From Sphingomonas mali NBRC 15500 (lineage in GTDB: Bacteria; Pseudomonadota; Alphaproteobacteria; Sphingomonadales; Sphingomonadaceae): 64,000 bases of DNA. Below are positions 24,285 through 31,174 of this stretch, in pieces (within the stretch, counting starts at the first letter, position 1; each line of letters starts with the position of its first letter). The stretch spans positions 1-64,000 of the forward strand of contig NZ_BCYX01000017.1 in the NCBI RefSeq assembly GCF_001598415.1, read 5' to 3'. Both the position numbers and the translations under genes were made by a program. Under the pieces are notes generated by a model. It ran no database searches, was not told where the DNA came from, and saw only the letters and a list, made by a program, of their open reading frames with translations.

Positions 24285-25466
24285 TCACGATCGTTTTGGC
24301 CGCAATCTGCGCAGTGCGAGGAGAAACGGCCGCAGAGGGTAGTAAAGGCCCCGGGCGAAATAGGGCAATTTCACCATGTCGACGTCACTCTGGCTTAGGA
24401 GCGCCCTAGCAAGGACTTCGCGCCGGTAACGCCAATCGCGCCGCAATCCGAGCTGCATCATCAACATGCGCACCAGTCGCGGTATCGATGGCGCGTTCGA
24501 CGCCGCCGCTGGTGCCGCCAGCGCCTCTCGCGATCGATTGACGATTCGGAGGGACGCTGACGAGTGGGCGTCCCCAATCGCGCCGGACAATGGGAGGCCG
24601 AATATTTGCTCGACCAATGTGGCGGCGCTGGTGGTCATCGGCCGAACCCCTAGCCGATCCGCGGCCTCGGCAAAGCCGGCGAGGGCCGCTGGCGACCCTG
24701 ACGCGAAGATGCGCGCAATGTCCTGGAGCCATTTCAGCCGAAACCAGCCGCACAAGGCGCCGTGCCCGCAAAGATACAGGAAATCGTCGGTCGCCGACAA
24801 TATTGGCAGCGTCGTTCCGGCGACTGCCAGCGTTTCGTGCATGGACCAGAAATGATCGAACGACAGTGGTAATAATTGAGCAACGTCGAACAGACGATCG
24901 TGCAATTCCAGTTCGATGCTGCCGTCCCTGCTTCGAAAGCTGACGTCCTTCGGCGCCAGTGATGCGCGCCACGGATCCCCCGGCGTTGTCGCTGTGTGCG
25001 TGCGGCGGAACCCGAGATCGGCGATTGCCGCTTCCGCCGGCGTACGCGCAGCGGGATCGATGAAAATATCGATATCCTTGCAGTCGCGCGCGGCGAGATC
25101 GTCATACAGGCGCTGCGATAGAGCCGGACCTTTGAGCACCAGATGCCGGATGCCGGCCTTGGAGAGCTCCTGGGACACCGCGACCAAGGCGGACGAGAGC
25201 CTCAGCGCGGACAATTGCCGTTCCCGCGCCAGTTCGAGCAGCCTTGTGGCGGTGTCGGCATCGAGTGCGGGATCGCGCGCCAAAATGCGGAGCACCGGTG
25301 TGCTGACGCGGTGGCGCATCGCCATCGCGAGGATCGCGTCGCCGCCCGGATGCGGGGGTGGATAGTCGATGAAGTCGCCTTCGCCGGTCGCGGCCGCTCG
25401 GCAGGCGGCGGCGACAATCGCGAACGCCGGCGATCGGCGTGCGGTCTCGGCGTCGCGCCGCATCAC
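24285..25466 (-). CDS. Nucleotidyltransferase-family protein of the RiPP locus
   Basis: The 393-residue product fits the uncharacterised NTP_transf_5-type family. A helical N-terminus is followed by the minimal nucleotidyltransferase core, with GIRHLVLKGPALSQRLYDDL and the metal-binding DxD in CKDIDIFIDP (about residues 135-144). Later come VSFRSRDGSIELELHDRLF, which supplies a third acidic position, and FLYLCGHGALCGWFRLKWLQDIAR. Similar proteins accompany PqqD-like and HprK-like genes. In the lasso peptide pseudomycoidin a nucleotidyltransferase is a tailoring enzyme. It is separated from the other modification genes by the beta-helix gene. Confidence 0.72.
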   Translation of the reverse strand: MMRRDAETARRSPAFAIVAAACRAAATGEGDFIDYPPPHPGGDAILAMAMRHRVSTPVLRILARDPALDADTATRLLELARERQLSALRLSSALVAVSQELSKAGIRHLVLKGPALSQRLYDDLAARDCKDIDIFIDPAARTPAEAAIADLGFRRTHTATTPGDPWRASLAPKDVSFRSRDGSIELELHDRLFDVAQLLPLSFDHFWSMHETLAVAGTTLPILSATDDFLYLCGHGALCGWFRLKWLQDIARIFASGSPAALAGFAEAADRLGVRPMTTSAATLVEQIFGLPLSGAIGDAHSSASLRIVNRSREALAAPAAASNAPSIPRLVRMLMMQLGLRRDWRYRREVLARALLSQSDVDMVKLPYFARGLYYPLRPFLLALRRLRPKRS

Positions 25467-25626
25467 ACGAGCCCGTACAGGTGACGCGCGCGGTTCAGGC
25501 CGACAGAAACCAGCTGCTGAGAACCTTGCGGAAGGAGCCGCGGTCGCATCGATTCATCCGCTACTCGACACCGCACCGGCTCTCCTGCCCCTTATCTTTC
25601 TGTTGGCGAGGGACTCCGCGCACAGA

Positions 25627-25656
25627 AACGGCGGGACTATTGCCAGTCCCGCCGTT
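25627..25656 (-). terminator. Strong hairpin after the beta-helix gene
   Basis: Perfect 12-base arms AACGGCGGGACT (25627-25638) and AGTCCCGCCGTT (25645-25656) lie 22 bases past the stop codon of the reverse-strand gene. On the transcript a T-containing stretch (TTTCTGTG) follows. Confidence 0.75.
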
Positions 25657-25677
25657 CAGTTTCCAGTCGCGTGCCGA

Positions 25678-26697
25678 TCAGTGCAGCGGGATCGTCGCGG
25701 TGAAGGCGCCGTCCGACGCGACGGCGGAACTGTTGAAATTGCCGTCAAGGCGGTTGTTGCCATAGCTCGACACCACCGATGCGTTCACCGCGTTAACGCC
25801 GGTCGCTGTCGCTGCGGTTGCGGCGCCGTTGCCGGTGATGGTGGTGGTGGCGAAGCGAGCGTTTACGCCGTTACCATTCGCGAAAACGCCATAGCTGACG
25901 TTGTTCGAAACGGTCGTGTCGGTCACGAGAGCATTGATCGTGCCCGTCCCGGCCGGCGCTTTGAACTGAATGCCGATACCGTCGCCGCTCAATTGGCTGT
26001 TGGCCAGCTGCACGTTGATACGGCTGCCCGTCGTGCCCGTAGTGTCGAGGCGAAGACCGACATTGACATTGTTCTGAACGCGGCTGTTACTGATCACGAC
26101 ATTGGCGGTGGCGCCGGTCGCCGGCGCGACCTTGATGGCGCCGGTCGTCGGATCGCCTGTGTTGCCGTTCCCAATAATGTCGACATTGTTCAGATTGAGA
26201 AAGGCGGTCTTGCCGGCGCCCGGCGTAAAGCTGACGGCCTGCGTGGCAAATCCCTTGATGGTGGTATTGCGCAGATTGAGCCCGGCACCATTCACGAAGT
26301 TGATGGCGTTGGTGCCCGGGACGGTCGTCGGCCCCAAGATATCGAGCCCGCTCACCGTGACGACATCGGTATCGCCAGCATTGATGGTGATTGCTGGCGA
26401 TGCAGCAACCAGCACACCGGCTTCGACATCGTCGCAAATGAGGCTGATCGCCTTGGTGATCGTCACCGCGCCGAAACCGCCCGGATCGATGCAATTGATC
26501 TCGCCGCCGGCGGCGGTCTTCGAGATCGCGCCGGCAAAGGTCTTGCACGGGGCGGTCCGGCTGCACGGATTGACATCGTCGCCGACACCGGAAATCCACG
26601 TCCGCGTCGCCTGAGCTGCCGCCGGCGCGGCGTAAAACGTGCTTGCCCCCACAATGGCGACGACCACAAAAGCCGACTTCTTAACTATAGATAACAT
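25678..26697 (-). CDS. Secreted right-handed beta-helix protein
   Basis: The 339-residue product has a signal peptide (residues 1-28, hydrophobic FVVVAIVGASTFYAAPAAAQA). The mature part opens with RTWISGVGDDVNPCSRTAPCKTFAGAI. Many short Asn/Thr/Val/Ile-rich rungs follow (DVVTVSGLDILGP, GLNLRNTTIKGFA, ANVVISNSRVQNN), as in a parallel beta-helix. No catalytic site is recognised and there is no autotransporter barrel. The cysteines (44, 50, 67 and 86 or so) could pair. It lies between the nucleotidyltransferase and the PqqD-like gene, but nothing ties it to peptide modification. Confidence 0.7.
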   Translation of the reverse strand: MLSIVKKSAFVVVAIVGASTFYAAPAAAQATRTWISGVGDDVNPCSRTAPCKTFAGAISKTAAGGEINCIDPGGFGAVTITKAISLICDDVEAGVLVAASPAITINAGDTDVVTVSGLDILGPTTVPGTNAINFVNGAGLNLRNTTIKGFATQAVSFTPGAGKTAFLNLNNVDIIGNGNTGDPTTGAIKVAPATGATANVVISNSRVQNNVNVGLRLDTTGTTGSRINVQLANSQLSGDGIGIQFKAPAGTGTINALVTDTTVSNNVSYGVFANGNGVNARFATTTITGNGAATAATATGVNAVNASVVSSYGNNRLDGNFNSSAVASDGAFTATIPLH

Positions 26698-27003
26698 TGT
26701 CTCTCCCCCATTTCGCGCACGCTACGCGACGACATGACGATCGTCTTGATAACGGCAACCGCTCAGTCGAATTCCGACGCCTTAAGTATTGATCCGAGAA
26801 GCCCGGCCAATCTTTGTCCAGAACCCCCCATCACATATACTTACCGAAATACTAATAGTGAAAATTCGGTTGATGTGCGAATGGAATCTGTCGTGGTGAC
26901 CACAGCGGTTATGCCATTGACGTGAAAGAATAACTCCGTGATCCTGCGAGAAAATTCCCATTTTAGGCATGGCTTAAACACGACCACGCCGGCCGACTCG
27001 ACC
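26698..27003. other. AT-richer intergenic region between divergent genes
   Basis: This gap separates the beta-helix gene from the PqqD-like gene. It is visibly less GC-rich than its surroundings (for example CATATACTTACCGAAATACT near 26835). I see no gene with codon use like its neighbours. It presumably carries divergent promoters, of which only the forward one at 27004-27033 is clear. Confidence 0.45.
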
Positions 27004-27033
27004 TTGCCAAGTCGGCGGACGGCAGCCTAGAAT
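27004..27033 (+). promoter_or_regulatory. Candidate promoter of the PqqD-like / asparagine-synthetase-like operon
   Basis: TTGCCA (27004-27009) and TAGAAT (27028-27033) are separated by 18 bases. They lie 35 bases upstream of the TTG start of the PqqD-like gene. Confidence 0.45.
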
Positions 27034-27068
27034 TGTCGCCAAGGTTGCATCGTTAAGGGTTATTTCGG

Positions 27069-27329
27069 TTGCTGAAGATCGCGCCACATATTGCGTGGAA
27101 CAATGTCGGTGGCGAACTCGCGCTGTTCGATGGCCGAGATGGCACCTACCATGCGCTCAATGAATCCAGCGCCGCGATCTGGCGAGGCATCGCCGCGGGA
27201 TTGGACGAGACCGAGATCGTGCGGTCGCTCGCCGAGAATCATAACGCCGAGCCGGCCGAAATCGGCCGGGATGTGCGCGAATTTATCGATCTGGCGCGGA
27301 CGAAGGGGCTCTTGGAGGGCAGCGATTGA
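27069..27329 (+). CDS. PqqD-like RiPP recognition element (lasso B1-like)
   Basis: The 86-residue winged-helix PqqD-family protein has the order expected of a leader-peptide-binding RRE: an N-terminal beta-hairpin (KIAPHIAWNNVGGELALFDG, then GTYHALNESSAAIWRGI) and C-terminal helices ending FIDLARTKGLL. It should bind the leader of the precursor at 31025-31174 and present it to the modifying enzymes. The start is TTG at 27069, with AAGGG about 11 bases upstream; no ATG is available. The stop codon overlaps the TTG of the next gene (TTGA). PqqD-like proteins also occur in HprK-related kinase systems of unknown product. Confidence 0.83.
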   Translation: MLKIAPHIAWNNVGGELALFDGRDGTYHALNESSAAIWRGIAAGLDETEIVRSLAENHNAEPAEIGRDVREFIDLARTKGLLEGSD

Positions 27330-29224
27330 GCGCCATCGCCGGCGCGGTTCTCGCTCACGGCAACACGCTGTCCGACGCTATATTGACGCGTATCGTGGCG
27401 GCCTCGCCGCCGCGCGGATTCGATGGCGTCACGCGCTGGCATGACGGGCCTGCCGGCATGATCCGGTTCCATCACGCGACCACCCCGGAGGCGGTGGCCG
27501 AACGGCAGCCGCTCCCCGGGGCCTCCGGCGCGGTGATGGCGTTTGACGGAAGACTGGATAACCGCGGCGATCTCCTGGCGCTTCTCGGCGAGCGAGGGCG
27601 TGCTCTGGCCGGTGCGCCCGACGTGGATATCGCGCTTGCCTTATGGGAAGCACGCGGCGAGCGCTTCCTGAACGACCTGGTTGGCGATTGGGCGCTGGCG
27701 ATCTGGCAGCCCGACAGACGCAGGCTGTTCTGCGCGCGCTCGCCGATGGGTTGGCGACCGTTACTATGGAGCTTCGACGGCCGGACTTTCGGTTTCGCGA
27801 CCGAACCGCGCGCGCTGGTCGTCGGGCTCGACCTCGAACGGCGGCTCGACGAGGGCGCCATCGGCGAGATGTTGTCGGCCCGTTTCGTCACGGGCACGGA
27901 CACGTTCTGGCAAGGGGTGCAGCGTCTTGGCCAGGGAGCGGCGGTCGAGCTTGAAAAGGGTCGCGTCAGGACCTGGCATTGGCACTCGGGCCCGTTCGAG
28001 GATCTCTCGCACCTGTCTGAAGGCGACCTTGTCGAGCGATTCCGCGAGCTTCTCGACCAATCGCTGATTGCGACGATGCGCAGCAACACGACGGTCAGCG
28101 CGCACCTTTCGGGTGGCCTCGATTCCTCGACCGTCGTCGCGCGCGCCACCGAATTGCATCGCGCCGGCAGGATCGATCGTCAGGTCCAGCCGGTCACTGC
28201 CCGCTTTCCGGGTGAGGCGCAGGACGAGACGCCATGGAGCAAGGCGGTAGAAGAGCATGTCGGTCTGACCGCACGGGTTACCTCCGCCGATCCGTTCGTT
28301 CTGGACGAGGCGCGCCGGTGGACCGCGCAAACGCTGCAACTGCCGTTGCGCCCCAACGTCAACGACACCACGACTGCTGCGTTTCGCCTGATGCAGGCGG
28401 AGGGTGGCCGCGTCCTGCTGACCGGCGAAGGCGGCGACGATTGGATAGCGGGCAGCCTAGCCCATCTGCCGGATATGCTGCGCAAGGGTGACCTGACTGG
28501 CCTGTTTCGCGAGGCGATGACGCAATTTCCCCAATTGTCGCCCGTTTTACGGTTTCGGCGAACCGGCTTTCTTGCTGCTGCGCCATTATTCAGTCGCGCC
28601 TATCGCGCCCGTTTTCTCCGCCCCCACCTGACCTATGACGGTGCAGTTCCGGACTGGATACGACCGGAATGGGCCGCGCGGACCGGGCTCGAGGAACGGT
28701 GGCGCGCGGATCTGCCCCCGGTCGAACTCAACAGCTTCGCGCAAATGCAGCGGTACAATGTCTTCGCGCATGCGCGCCGCCACCTCGCTCATGATACGAT
28801 CCTCGCTTTTGCCGAGGCACACGGAGTCGAGATCCGTCATCCGCTACACGACTTGCGACTTGCGACCTTCTTCATGGGGGTGCCGGGAACGATGTTGCTG
28901 CGGAACGGTGAAAAGAAGCATCTGTTGCGCGAAGCGATGCGGGGGACGCTGCCTGAGGTGGTTCGTCAACGCCAGGACAAGGCGATCTTCATCACCAGCC
29001 TGATCGACGCGATCGCGGAGCGCTTTCGGGAATGCCCGCCACAAAATCTGCTACCGGCCAGACTTGGCTGGGTCGACGGCGACAAGGTGGCGGAGATGTT
29101 CGCGCCGGCGCTGGAATGGCGTTCGGCGGGGTCGACGGGCCAATTGTCGCGCGGCAGAATCGGGCCGATCTGGTTCGTGGTGGCGATGGATATGTGGCTC
29201 GAACACGCCTTTGGCATGTCGTGA
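27326..29224 (+). CDS. Asparagine-synthetase-like macrolactam synthetase (lasso C-like)
   Basis: The 632-residue product combines an N-terminal class-II amidotransferase-like fold (VMAFDGRLDNRGDLLALLG, FLNDLVGDWALAIWQPDRRRLFCARS) with an ATP-pyrophosphatase domain. The latter has the PP-loop AHLSGGLDSSTVVARA near residue 262 and LTGEGGDDWIAGS later. Residue 2 is Ser, so the catalytic Cys of a working glutaminase is missing. This is usual for lasso cyclases, which activate an Asp/Glu side chain. The start is TTG, overlapping the PqqD-like stop by 4 bases. It is convergent with the sulfotransferase gene. Confidence 0.82.
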   Translation: MSAIAGAVLAHGNTLSDAILTRIVAASPPRGFDGVTRWHDGPAGMIRFHHATTPEAVAERQPLPGASGAVMAFDGRLDNRGDLLALLGERGRALAGAPDVDIALALWEARGERFLNDLVGDWALAIWQPDRRRLFCARSPMGWRPLLWSFDGRTFGFATEPRALVVGLDLERRLDEGAIGEMLSARFVTGTDTFWQGVQRLGQGAAVELEKGRVRTWHWHSGPFEDLSHLSEGDLVERFRELLDQSLIATMRSNTTVSAHLSGGLDSSTVVARATELHRAGRIDRQVQPVTARFPGEAQDETPWSKAVEEHVGLTARVTSADPFVLDEARRWTAQTLQLPLRPNVNDTTTAAFRLMQAEGGRVLLTGEGGDDWIAGSLAHLPDMLRKGDLTGLFREAMTQFPQLSPVLRFRRTGFLAAAPLFSRAYRARFLRPHLTYDGAVPDWIRPEWAARTGLEERWRADLPPVELNSFAQMQRYNVFAHARRHLAHDTILAFAEAHGVEIRHPLHDLRLATFFMGVPGTMLLRNGEKKHLLREAMRGTLPEVVRQRQDKAIFITSLIDAIAERFRECPPQNLLPARLGWVDGDKVAEMFAPALEWRSAGSTGQLSRGRIGPIWFVVAMDMWLEHAFGMS

Positions 29225-29249
29225 CGAGGTGTGGGGCTGACGGGCTCGC

Positions 29250-30086
29250 TCAACCGGTGGCGGCGCGATGCTCGCGCAAATACCTCAGCACGAACGCTTC
29301 GTTGTCGCTACCCGACTGGCGCTGCAAACGGATGGGTGGAATGGGCGAGTTGCTGCCGATACTGTTCAGCACGTGGCGGACGCCGCCCTCATAATCGGCA
29401 ACCAGATTCTCGTAGCTCAGCCGGATCGGATCAGCCTCGATTGCGTCGAAGAAGTTGCGCCAATGGCCGTGACAATGGTCGGCATAGGCGATGAGCGAGT
29501 CGATCCGTCCGAAATCATATTCGGGGACCGCCTTCGCGGGCGGCGTCTCGGTCATCGGCACGATGCGAAACAGACCCGTTTGCGTGGCCGCCAGCCCCGA
29601 CACGGCCTGGCGGACGCGGTCCTTGCGTTCGAGATGAACGAAGCGGGGACGGGGAAAGATCGGATCGAGCAACGCGGCGATCTCGCGATAGGTGCCGGCA
29701 TCGACCTCGTCGGGCCGGCGTCCGGCCAAAGCGGCGAACCGGGTTGGCTCTAACTCTGCCGCCAAGGCTTCGACATCGCTCCAGAACAACTTCACCGACA
29801 GCACGCCGGTGGGATCGGTGCGCCAGCGATGCACCGCACGAATATAGTCCGTCAGCGTTTGAGCATTCCAGCGCTCGGCGAAGTCGGGCTGAAAGCCCTG
29901 ATGGAAATATTCGAGCGGGCAACCGAGCCCGCCGGCAAAGTGGAGCGCTTCGCCAAGCAAGGTGCTGCCCGAGCGCGGAACCGAACAGATGAGCAACGTG
30001 CGCCGCGGCGGCCCGACGCACTCGGGATAGTCGCGGTCGGCCAGGGTCAGGTCATAGGGGCGTCGTGGCGGAGCGTCGATCGACAT
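29250..30086 (-). CDS. Stf0-type sulfotransferase of the RiPP locus
   Basis: The 278-residue product has the PAPS 5'-phosphosulfate loop CSVPRSGSTLLGEAL near residue 34-48. It also carries the Stf0-type segments EYFHQGFQPDF, FVHLERKDRVRQAVSGLAATQTGLF and IRLSYENLVADYEGGVRHVL. It should transfer a sulfate to a hydroxyl. Its ATG begins one base after the stop of the HprK-like gene, so kinase and sulfotransferase are probably coupled and share a substrate. Trehalose-type substrates of classical Stf0 are unlikely here. Confidence 0.8.
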   Translation of the reverse strand: MSIDAPPRRPYDLTLADRDYPECVGPPRRTLLICSVPRSGSTLLGEALHFAGGLGCPLEYFHQGFQPDFAERWNAQTLTDYIRAVHRWRTDPTGVLSVKLFWSDVEALAAELEPTRFAALAGRRPDEVDAGTYREIAALLDPIFPRPRFVHLERKDRVRQAVSGLAATQTGLFRIVPMTETPPAKAVPEYDFGRIDSLIAYADHCHGHWRNFFDAIEADPIRLSYENLVADYEGGVRHVLNSIGSNSPIPPIRLQRQSGSDNEAFVLRYLREHRAATG

Positions 30087-30087
30087 G

Positions 30088-31047
30088 TCAGTGCTGCAAC
30101 ATCCCCTCTAGCTGCTCGACGATCGCGGGAAGCGCGCCATAATCCGGCGGATAGAACAAGCGGAAGCAAGGAGTGACCTGCGCCATCGTGCTGAGCGCGG
30201 CAAAGGTCGCGCGCAATTCGGCGCCGGTCGTTTCGGCGGGGTTGAACCGGATCCGCTCGCGGGTAGAACATCCCAGCGCCTCTATCGGCGGAACGGGGAC
30301 AAGATGTGCTTCCCGAGCATTGGCCGAGCGTTCGAGAAGTACGATGGCGTTCAGCGGCATCGGCGCGGTGTTGGTTTCGTTTCCCGGAACGAAGCGCCGC
30401 TTGCCGAGGTAGCCGGGCATCGGCGTCGATTGCCGAGGGGGCAGGGCGAGCGCGGCGAACGAGTCCGCCCACACACAGATTCCGGTAGTGGCCGGCGCGA
30501 CCCGGGGGGCATCGTGATCCCACAATATCGAGATGTCGTCGCTGAGCACGTCCCAGCCGGCCGCTCCCAACGCCGCCGACGTGGTCGATTTGCCCGCCCC
30601 CGATGCGCCGAGCAACAGCAGTGCGTGATCGCCCTTCGCTGCGGCTGCAGCATGCAACGCTACCGCACCATAGCGGATGGCGACGCGTGGCAAGATGCGG
30701 CGAACGAGCACGTCGAGCCAAGCCGGATCCCTTCGATCGCGAACGACACAGCTTATCGTGTGTCGCGCTTCGTCAATCAGGAAAGCGCAATCGAGCGACG
30801 TGGTCAGCAACCAGCGTTCGCCGACCCTTCCCAAGGAGAGACCATAGCGCCCATTCCAACGGAAAAGAATGGTGTCGGGCGTCGGCAACGGCCCTTCCAT
30901 AACGTCCAGAGAGAGCGATGCTTTCGCCTCGCCCGATTCCTCGCATTCTTCTCTTAATTGTGCGAGCGGCTCGCTCGATTCCAGCTTTAAACCGCCGTAA
31001 CGATACCGATAGCGGATGGTATCCTCAGCTATTGCTGCTGAGACCAT
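30088..31047 (-). CDS. HprK-related kinase (lasso-peptide-kinase-like)
   Basis: The 319-residue product has a P-loop GASGAGKST (residues about 147-155) preceded by AVALHAAAA (His near 132), with LSDDISIL at 168-175. That is the HPr kinase core without an HPr partner nearby. The N-terminal part (residues 1-110) is not HprK-like. Such proteins occur in two settings: kinases that phosphorylate a C-terminal Ser of lasso peptides such as paeninodin, and HprK-related systems of unknown product. The ATG lies inside the 3' end of the precursor gene (23-base overlap) in another frame, implying coupling. Confidence 0.8.
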   Translation of the reverse strand: MVSAAIAEDTIRYRYRYGGLKLESSEPLAQLREECEESGEAKASLSLDVMEGPLPTPDTILFRWNGRYGLSLGRVGERWLLTTSLDCAFLIDEARHTISCVVRDRRDPAWLDVLVRRILPRVAIRYGAVALHAAAAAKGDHALLLLGASGAGKSTTSAALGAAGWDVLSDDISILWDHDAPRVAPATTGICVWADSFAALALPPRQSTPMPGYLGKRRFVPGNETNTAPMPLNAIVLLERSANAREAHLVPVPPIEALGCSTRERIRFNPAETTGAELRATFAALSTMAQVTPCFRLFYPPDYGALPAIVEQLEGMLQH

Positions 31048-31174
31048 CGCCCGGATTCAGGGTTGCCGCCTTGGTTGCCAAAACCGCGTCGAACGAAACG
31101 ACTTCCGGCTTCACCCAATCGCGCTTGATTTGGCTCGTCTCGTGCTCGGTTCCAACTTCGACATGCTTCGTCAT
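31025..31174 (-). CDS. Candidate RiPP precursor peptide (lasso-like, 49 aa)
   Basis: This short peptide gene is too small for routine calling. It has a strong ribosome site: AGGGGG, seven bases, then ATG. A charged leader (MTKHVEVGTEHETSQIKR) is followed by WVKPEV, which resembles the YxxPxL recognition motif of lasso leaders. Then comes Thr34-Lys35 and a possible 14-residue core, AATLNPGDGLSSNS. With Thr at position -2, core residue 1 is Ala and residue 8 is Asp, which allows an eight-residue macrolactam ring. The core ends in Ser, the residue phosphorylated in paeninodin. The kinase gene overlaps its 3' end. Leader and core boundaries are inferred. Confidence 0.7.
   Translation of the reverse strand: MTKHVEVGTEHETSQIKRDWVKPEVVSFDAVLATKAATLNPGDGLSSNS

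Follow-up and report, generated by a model that had tools for sequence, protein, structure and literature searches.

Positions 24,285 to 31,174 of the window (the whole stretch of 64,000 nucleotides analysed here, positions 1 to 64,000 of contig NZ_BCYX01000017.1 of Sphingomonas mali NBRC 15500) hold a group of genes resembling those that build ribosomally synthesised and post-translationally modified peptides (RiPPs), lasso peptides in particular. The genes, with the letters used for them below, are as follows:

31025 to 31174, minus strand: lasso-type precursor gene (A), 49 residues; leader at 31070-31174, predicted core at 31028-31069
30088 to 31047, minus strand: HprK-type precursor kinase (K), 319 residues; motif H132-G147-G150-G152-K153-S154-D170-D171
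29250 to 30086, minus strand: Stf0-type sulfotransferase using 3'-phosphoadenosine 5'-phosphosulfate (PAPS), 278 residues; PF09037, E 1.1e-30
27069 to 27329, plus strand: PqqD-like RiPP recognition element (RRE; B1), 86 residues; PF05402, E 9.7e-15
27326 to 29224, plus strand: AsnB-like lasso macrolactam cyclase (C), 632 residues, TTG start; PF00733, E 8e-43
25678 to 26697, minus strand: secreted beta-helix-like protein between N and B1, a conserved neighbour; weak match of a homologue
24285 to 25466, minus strand: PF14907 nucleotidyltransferase NTP_transf_5 (N), 393 residues, probable pathway member; E 9.6e-42

The B1 and C pair (the start of C overlapping the PqqD gene by four bases) faces the set of A, K and Stf0 on the opposite strand, and N lies beyond the beta-helix-like gene. 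Judged from sequence, the locus probably makes a small, cysteine-free lasso peptide and tailors it with phosphate and sulfate, a reading held with fair confidence. A first-pass annotation of the same DNA had proposed a RiPP locus here; the genes that it named are all present in the open reading frame (ORF) list where it placed them, and profile hidden Markov models (HMMs) confirmed the families NTP_transf_5, PqqD, Asn_synthase and Stf0.

The precursor reads MTKHVEVGTEHETSQIKRD-WVKPEVVSFDAVLATK-AATLNPGDGLSSNS, of which AATLNPGDGLSSNS is the predicted core. Its leader carries a WVKPEV motif, which fits the [Y/W]xxPx[L/V/I/F/A] motif of RRE-bound leaders; in Bacillota, Trp in place of Tyr marks the paeninodin type (PMC13381572). 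The core is predicted to form a ring from Ala1 to Asp8, its sole acidic residue, followed by a six-residue tail with a C-terminal Ser, and contains no cysteine. It is small for a lasso peptide; others as short as this are known. The Thr at position -2 agrees with the usual lasso rule (PMC10368454). This design is shared by the 21 precursors found at the 19 related loci described below: when aligned on the leader Trp, the core begins a fixed 16 residues past it in every case, is 14-16 residues long, contains exactly one acid (position 8 in 19 precursors, position 9 in two) and has Ser/Thr either as its last residue (14/21) or just before a final Pro or Ala (7/21). The precursor of one locus (L067) was recognised by eye, and the simpler pattern W..P.[VILM] finds all 21. 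In a six-frame scan of the 19 loci, this pattern with a remainder of 12-20 residues gave 30 matches, 21 of them with the one-acid arrangement and all 21 being cluster precursors, while 20 shuffles gave 11.1 matches and 0.75 one-acid matches per set. Furthermore, comparison with S. asaccharolytica revealed 13 synonymous and 5 nonsynonymous changes in the precursor (ratio of nonsynonymous to synonymous rates, dN/dS, 0.08). Since purifying selection and pattern matches far above the shuffled sets coincide, the precursor represents more than a chance reading frame. The same comparison, which did not extend to N, gave dN/dS values of 0.07-0.27 for the kinase, Stf0, PqqD, AsnB and beta-helix genes. 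The start of K and the end of A share 23 bases, read in different frames (31025-31047), likewise in S. asaccharolytica, making translational coupling of precursor and kinase possible.

The AsnB-like protein has lasso cyclase NF033535 as its best NCBIfam model (E 4.3e-74, 250 bits, cut-off 525), retains an SGGLDSS loop and is 94% identical to its counterpart in S. asaccharolytica NBRC 15499, the nearest named relative. Its N-terminus (L/M-S-A-I) has no glutaminase Cys, as the first pass had observed, and the same holds for 17/17 relatives compared. The PqqD-like protein exceeds the PF05402 cut-off, its best NCBIfam model being lasso_PqqD_Strm (E 4.2e-12, 46 bits, cut-off 70). The description of the kinase as HprK-like stands by its motif, which is that of lasso kinases with the exact spacing, and is weak by model (TIGR04352, E 3.3e-12; Pfam Hpr_kinase_C, E 0.18). 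Models of the HPr-rel-A system were missed by both the kinase (TIGR04352, 46.1 of 200 bits) and the PqqD-like protein (TIGR04353, 28.8 of 35 bits). Overall, the kinase and the AsnB-like protein are nearest to lasso and other RiPP enzymes rather than to capsule enzymes, yet stay below curated cut-offs. In an alignment of 13 kinases (11 of the 16 from Stf0 loci and two from loci without Stf0), H132, G147, G150, G152, K153, S154 and D171 are present in all and D170 in 12; the window spacing equals that printed for the lasso kinase BsfK (PMC10368454). The window combines the His-Lys-Asp-Asp kinase motif and the C-terminal Ser (...SSNS) of paeninodin-type systems. Such a Ser is the site modified by PadeK, ThcoK, SyanK and PsmK (PMC8498205, PMC9266682), while BsfK phosphorylates Ser3 (PMC10368454). 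Because Ser/Thr occurs at the C-terminal site in 21/21 cores and at position 3 in 15/21, the C-terminus is the better guess for the phosphate.

The sulfotransferase scores 107 bits against PF09037 (cut-off 22), and among solved structures a profile of five relatives matches the Stf0 enzyme 1tex alone (E 1.1e-21). In 5/5 Stf0 proteins, the PRSGS loop is invariant, and so is Glu59; its aligned counterpart, Glu56 in the 1tex chain (native Glu36), is presumably catalytic. The model for trehalose 2-sulfotransferase (NF047724) was missed at 84.9 of 400 bits, yet it is the nearest named model.

The association of this sulfotransferase with lasso genes was examined across relatives, which the first pass had named beforehand as a test of its proposal. 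A search profile (A1) built from five of the 19 Stf0 proteins and applied at E <= 1e-30 to 295 genomes of the window's genus gave 18 loci in 15 genomes. An order-wide draw of 396 genomes contributed a single further genome, G172, from another genus (G, L and C numbers denote genomes, loci and contigs). In a class-wide draw of 327 genomes, seven apart from that of the window had matches, all of them distant relatives at E 2.4e-33 or weaker. The resulting clade comprises 19 loci in 16 genomes (15/295 of the genus and one of another genus). Loci L112-L118 from the class-wide search, with no cluster genes within about 1.5 kb, and five plasmid matches (<=31% identity) were left out, and clusters seen twice (L045 = L081, L046 = L080) were counted once. 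Within the stretches fetched, mostly 20 kb, the 19 loci contain the precursor in 19, the clade AsnB in 18, PqqD in 18, the clade HprK in 16 and a PF14907-type gene in 13. The three loci without the clade HprK belong to genomes with a clade copy elsewhere, and all 16 genomes thus have a clade kinase. The precursor adjoins Stf0 at 12 loci, and the kinase gene alone lies between them at the other seven, the window included. Complete co-directional operons with the order N-B2-A-K-Stf0-B1-C-B1' (B2 being the leader peptidase discussed below) occur at two loci, L078 (G474) and L079 (G402), in both of which the PF14907-type gene adjoins B2. Such operons, along with the per-locus co-occurrence, tie Stf0 to lasso enzymes, and the association is retained at Stf0 identities as low as 48%. 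The window layout of A-K-Stf0 facing B1-C is common to S. asaccharolytica, S. caeni and G354. Neither of the two outcomes that the first pass had set as refuting its proposal was seen. The observation of the locus made on the first pass is confirmed and its RiPP interpretation supported, a peptide both phosphorylated and sulfated being the predicted product; to this, the present analysis adds that the locus is specifically of the lasso type.

Nevertheless, several points weigh against a complete lasso pathway with these modifications. Among the parts of a lasso cluster, the window holds the leader motif with an acidic core residue within the expected ring positions 7-9, the RRE and the cyclase without glutaminase Cys, and lacks an in-cluster B2: neither five B2 queries nor a genome search placed a PF13471 protein in it, a gap not raised on the first pass. 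A second PqqD-type RRE, seen in 15/19 loci (for example, L035:10984-11286), is likewise not in the window; where both occur, the two RREs might divide the recruitment of the kinase and of the cyclase. Inspection by eye of the ORFs between 20000 and 36000 revealed neither an exporter nor an immunity gene, though no HMM scan of these neighbours was run. The curated NCBIfam cut-offs are not reached by AsnB, PqqD or HprK, and the -2 residue of the family is Thr in only 4/21 leaders (the window's included) and Ala in 17/21. At L066, L068 and L072, the kinase lies outside the stretch fetched, and 6/19 loci lack N. The loci of G312, G400 and G528 reach contig ends, due to which absences there are uncertain; the N orthologue of S. 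asaccharolytica (G312, L119) lies <200 bases from such an end. The co-occurrence counts ignore kinship, a B2 of the type described next was not found in two of the 15 Stf0-bearing genomes of the genus (G501, G535), and the AlphaFold2 model of Stf0 (three sequences) had a mean predicted local distance difference test score of 40 and was not used.

Absence from the window means that the B2 peptidase must come from elsewhere. The genome of S. mali NBRC 15500 has two PF13471 genes over the cut-off, on contigs C14 and C19, and the C14 protein (C14:101729-102205, 159 residues, stand-alone) passes the lasso B2 model NF033537 (78.8 bits, cut-off 33) and is 48% identical to the B2 proteins of the two complete operons. 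All 16 genomes with Stf0 have a B2, inside the Stf0 locus in four (G155, G172, G474, G402; 4/19 loci) and only outside it in 12, which makes it probable that B2 acts on the window precursor in trans. With kinship ignored, PF13471 occurs in 15/15 genomes of the genus with Stf0 and 114/280 without (p 2.5e-6), and relatives of the C14 protein in 13/15 and 46/280, respectively (p 2e-8, kinship again ignored). A single B2 is present in each of G354, G308, G402 and G474; that of G354 and of G308 lies far from the Stf0 cluster (in G308, inside another AsnB/PqqD/HprK cluster), and in G474 there are two Stf0 clusters to the one B2. The locus with precursor and Stf0 in G528 and G534 (L072, L066; in G528 with B1' and C too) is complemented by a further locus of the order N-B2-K-B1 (L125, L126). 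Parts of the pathway working in trans are the simplest reading of this layout. Of six B2 loci compared, two (G000 and G400; L037, L122) keep an M13 peptidase gene next to the outlying B2.

In the proposed pathway, the RRE would bind the WVKPEV leader and thereby bring the precursor to the kinase, peptidase and cyclase. The HprK-type kinase may act on a core Ser/Thr of the linear precursor, most likely Ser14 (as for PadeK and SyanK) and less so Thr3 (as for BsfK). The B2 encoded elsewhere (on contig C14) would cleave after Thr-Lys, following which the AsnB-like cyclase would adenylate Asp8 and link it to Ala1, giving an eight-residue ring and a six-residue tail. Stf0 would transfer sulfate from PAPS, and the PF14907 enzyme, if PsmN-like, may place a hexose (or nucleotide) on the phosphate. 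The cut site, the ring, its threading by the tail, the order of steps and the sulfation with its site are all predicted features of this scheme.

With regard to the position of the sulfate, two possibilities deserve consideration. It is tentatively proposed that the kinase places a phosphate on the C-terminal Ser/Thr, that the PF14907 enzyme adds a hexose to it (as reported for PsmN, a putative member of the same family) and that Stf0 sulfates this hexose. The C-terminal Ser/Thr is the sole hydroxyl position kept in 21/21 cores and coincides with the site of PadeK, ThcoK, SyanK and PsmK (PMC8498205, PMC9266682), so that it would offer one universal anchor for both enzymes. A sugar (trehalose) enzyme is both the nearest named model and the one structure matched, and the clade kinase accompanies Stf0 in all 16 genomes. 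On the other hand, the six loci without N speak against it, albeit each of the six genomes concerned has a PF14907 gene elsewhere. The precursor and Stf0 also remain adjacent where K and N lie elsewhere (L066, L068, L072), pointing a little towards direct action of Stf0 on the peptide. Such direct sulfation, in which Thr/Ser3, Ser11 or the C-terminal Ser would supply the hydroxyl and the kinase would act on another one, is possible though rather doubtful. Positions 3 and 11 each carry Ser/Thr in 15/21 cores, modification of Ser3 as by BsfK (PMC10368454) would leave the C-terminus free, and the precursor adjoins Stf0 or is separated from it by one kinase gene in 19/19 loci; however, neither position is universal, and Tyr, a common sulfation site, is missing from 8/21 cores, including that of the window. 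The balance tips slightly towards a sulfated sugar over a sulfated side chain, since the C-terminal Ser/Thr is the sole universal hydroxyl and the expected phosphate site, and since PsmN is reported to add hexose to such a phosphate.

A linear phosphopeptide system akin to the linear polyphosphorylated peptides (LPPs) of Bacillota, in which the AsnB-like protein would serve another purpose such as amidation, is improbable. Although the kinase, a nucleoside triphosphate (NTP) transferase and the RRE are shared with LPP clusters (PMC13381572), the latter have no cyclase, and their leader peptidase is signal-peptidase-like. The present loci contain the cyclase in 18/19 cases, the window included, B2 stands in both complete operons and a single acid occupies position 8 or 9 in 21/21 cores; signal-peptidase-type peptidases were not searched for. 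Decay of the window locus after loss of B2 and the second RRE would explain the absence of both genes and is likewise improbable, considering the low dN/dS (0.07-0.27) of six genes, the A-K-Stf0/B1-C layout kept in S. asaccharolytica, S. caeni and G354, and frames that are open throughout. Lastly, an accidental neighbourhood of capsule or sugar-metabolism genes, conceivable in that Stf0 enzymes and nucleotidyltransferases are families with sugar and nucleotide substrates, is rejected on synteny (lasso B2 and precursor within the co-directional operons L078 and L079) and is close to refuted by the association over 19 loci down to 48% Stf0 identity.

Apart from these core genes, several relatives encode further tailoring enzymes that the window does not: a PRMT7-like methyltransferase, a 2-oxoglutarate (2OG)-Fe(II) oxygenase and a B12-dependent radical S-adenosylmethionine (SAM) methyltransferase. 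The PRMT7-like gene (nearest structure 4c4a, E 2.8e-35; L069:10705-11814, with homologues in L035, L036, L068, L070, L071 and L073-L077) is present in 11/11 loci with an Arg core and 0/8 without (Fisher 1.3e-5). This correlation needs only two changes on the Stf0 tree and was dropped as independent evidence for that reason; resting on one or two evolutionary changes, it suggests an arginine-methylated lasso peptide at these loci. The oxygenase (L069:8873-9535) is present in all nine loci whose core has Arg-Pro and in 0/10 others, and the radical SAM C-methyltransferase (L069:6640-8487; TIGR03975, E 6.8e-158) in six, from which heavily decorated peptides of 14-15 residues are predicted in these relatives. 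Taken furthest, the family would comprise very short (14-16 residue) Sphingomonas lasso peptides with a scattered pathway, in which the peptidase, and in some species K and N, serve distant precursor-Stf0 loci in trans, the C-terminal Ser/Thr bears a sulfated phospho-sugar that, being bulky and charged, perhaps plugs the short tail in the ring, and relatives add arginine methylation, hydroxylation and C-methylation; this full picture is speculative and unlikely to hold in every part.

The beta-helix-like gene named on the first pass does exist as an ORF with conserved homologues, its name being borne out only through a weak match of one of them: the window copy has no Pfam match, and only a S. 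caeni homologue matches PF13229 Beta_helix, below the cut-off (E 2.3e-4). Its homologues adjoin PqqD in 3/18 other Stf0 loci, with two tandem copies in S. caeni (L080:9512-11589). A second lasso-like cluster with AsnB-like, PqqD and HprK-like genes is present in the same genome (L039; C20:33000-52000), along with a small ORF (L039, 5685-5903) that has a W..P motif and a C-terminal Ser.

Phosphorylated lasso clusters in Firmicutes and Proteobacteria, as well as phosphoglycosylated pseudomycoidin, have been reported (PMC8498205, PMC9266682). The first pass had called the combination of phosphate and sulfate unfamiliar, and no described sulfated lasso peptide was indeed found in literature searches of incomplete coverage; in a June 2026 review of lasso modifications (PMC13352647), a term search met no 'sulfo', and 'sulfa' only in a reference on a sulfatase. 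The pairing of lasso genes with such an enzyme is nonetheless not without precedent: some lasso clusters of Firmicutes begin with a putative sulfotransferase gene (Zhu et al., 2016, via PMC8498205). Such gene sets are also already in print for Pontixanthobacter, where B2, nucleotidyltransferase, sulfotransferase, PqqD and AsnB-like genes are listed near-consecutively among halotolerance-linked genes and, in the available part of the survey, are not read as a pathway (PMC10040529). The present family offers natural substrates, genes for kinase, sulfotransferase and nucleotidyltransferase (in relatives, methyltransferase and oxygenase) and exact mass predictions. For the window core, the calculated [M+H]+ is 1285.602 as lasso, 1365.568 with HPO3, 1365.559 with SO3, 1527.621 with HPO3 and hexose, and 1607.578 with all three groups; the phosphate and sulfate forms lie 9.5 mDa apart. 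Moreover, lasso clusters whose essential peptidase probably sits outside could be missed or mis-called by tools that expect complete clusters.

Among characterised systems, the SyanA/SyanK-type cluster of Sphingobium yanoikuyae likewise combines a sphingomonad lasso peptide, an HprK-type kinase, a C-terminal Ser and B2 (Zhu et al., 2016, via PMC8498205, PMC9266682, PMC10368454). The window family differs from it in having Stf0 in the gene set of the precursor, a 14-16-residue core whose one acid is at position 8 or 9, and mostly Ala at -2, while the window's B2 lies outside the locus. Paeninodin of Paenibacillus dendritiformis shares the WxxP leader type (PMC13381572) and a kinase that modifies the C-terminal Ser of the linear precursor (PMC8498205, PMC9266682), whereas the window locus adds Stf0, belongs to another phylum and has no exporter recognised in it. 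Pseudomycoidin, with PsmK and PsmN, also pairs a kinase with an annotated nucleotidyltransferase (PMC8498205, PMC9266682). It is also similar in that it is reportedly made in vivo without the leader peptidase, going by the title of a 2019 paper of Zyubko et al. In contrast, the window has Stf0 and an N gene apart from K, PsmN being a putative member of the PF14907 family. The bsf cluster of Bradymonas sediminis (BsfA, B1, B2, C, D, K, N) resembles the present family in K, N, a separate B2, the spacing of the kinase motif and an unusual -2 residue, but its kinase acts on Ser3, an exporter is present and its seven genes include no sulfotransferase (PMC10368454). The LPPs have an RRE, an HprK-type kinase and an NTP transferase in common with the window, and differ in the missing cyclase, the signal-peptidase-type leader peptidase and the linear product (PMC13381572). 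The trehalose 2-sulfotransferase Stf0 (1tex) shares the profile family, the PAPS-loop motif and the Glu at the aligned position, while the window enzyme is encoded with a RiPP precursor and reaches 84.9 of the 400 bits of the trehalose model. Phosphorylated lasso clusters, and a putative sulfotransferase in those of Firmicutes, are already known; what is new is the Stf0 family of sphingomonads, along with its precursors and scattered layout.

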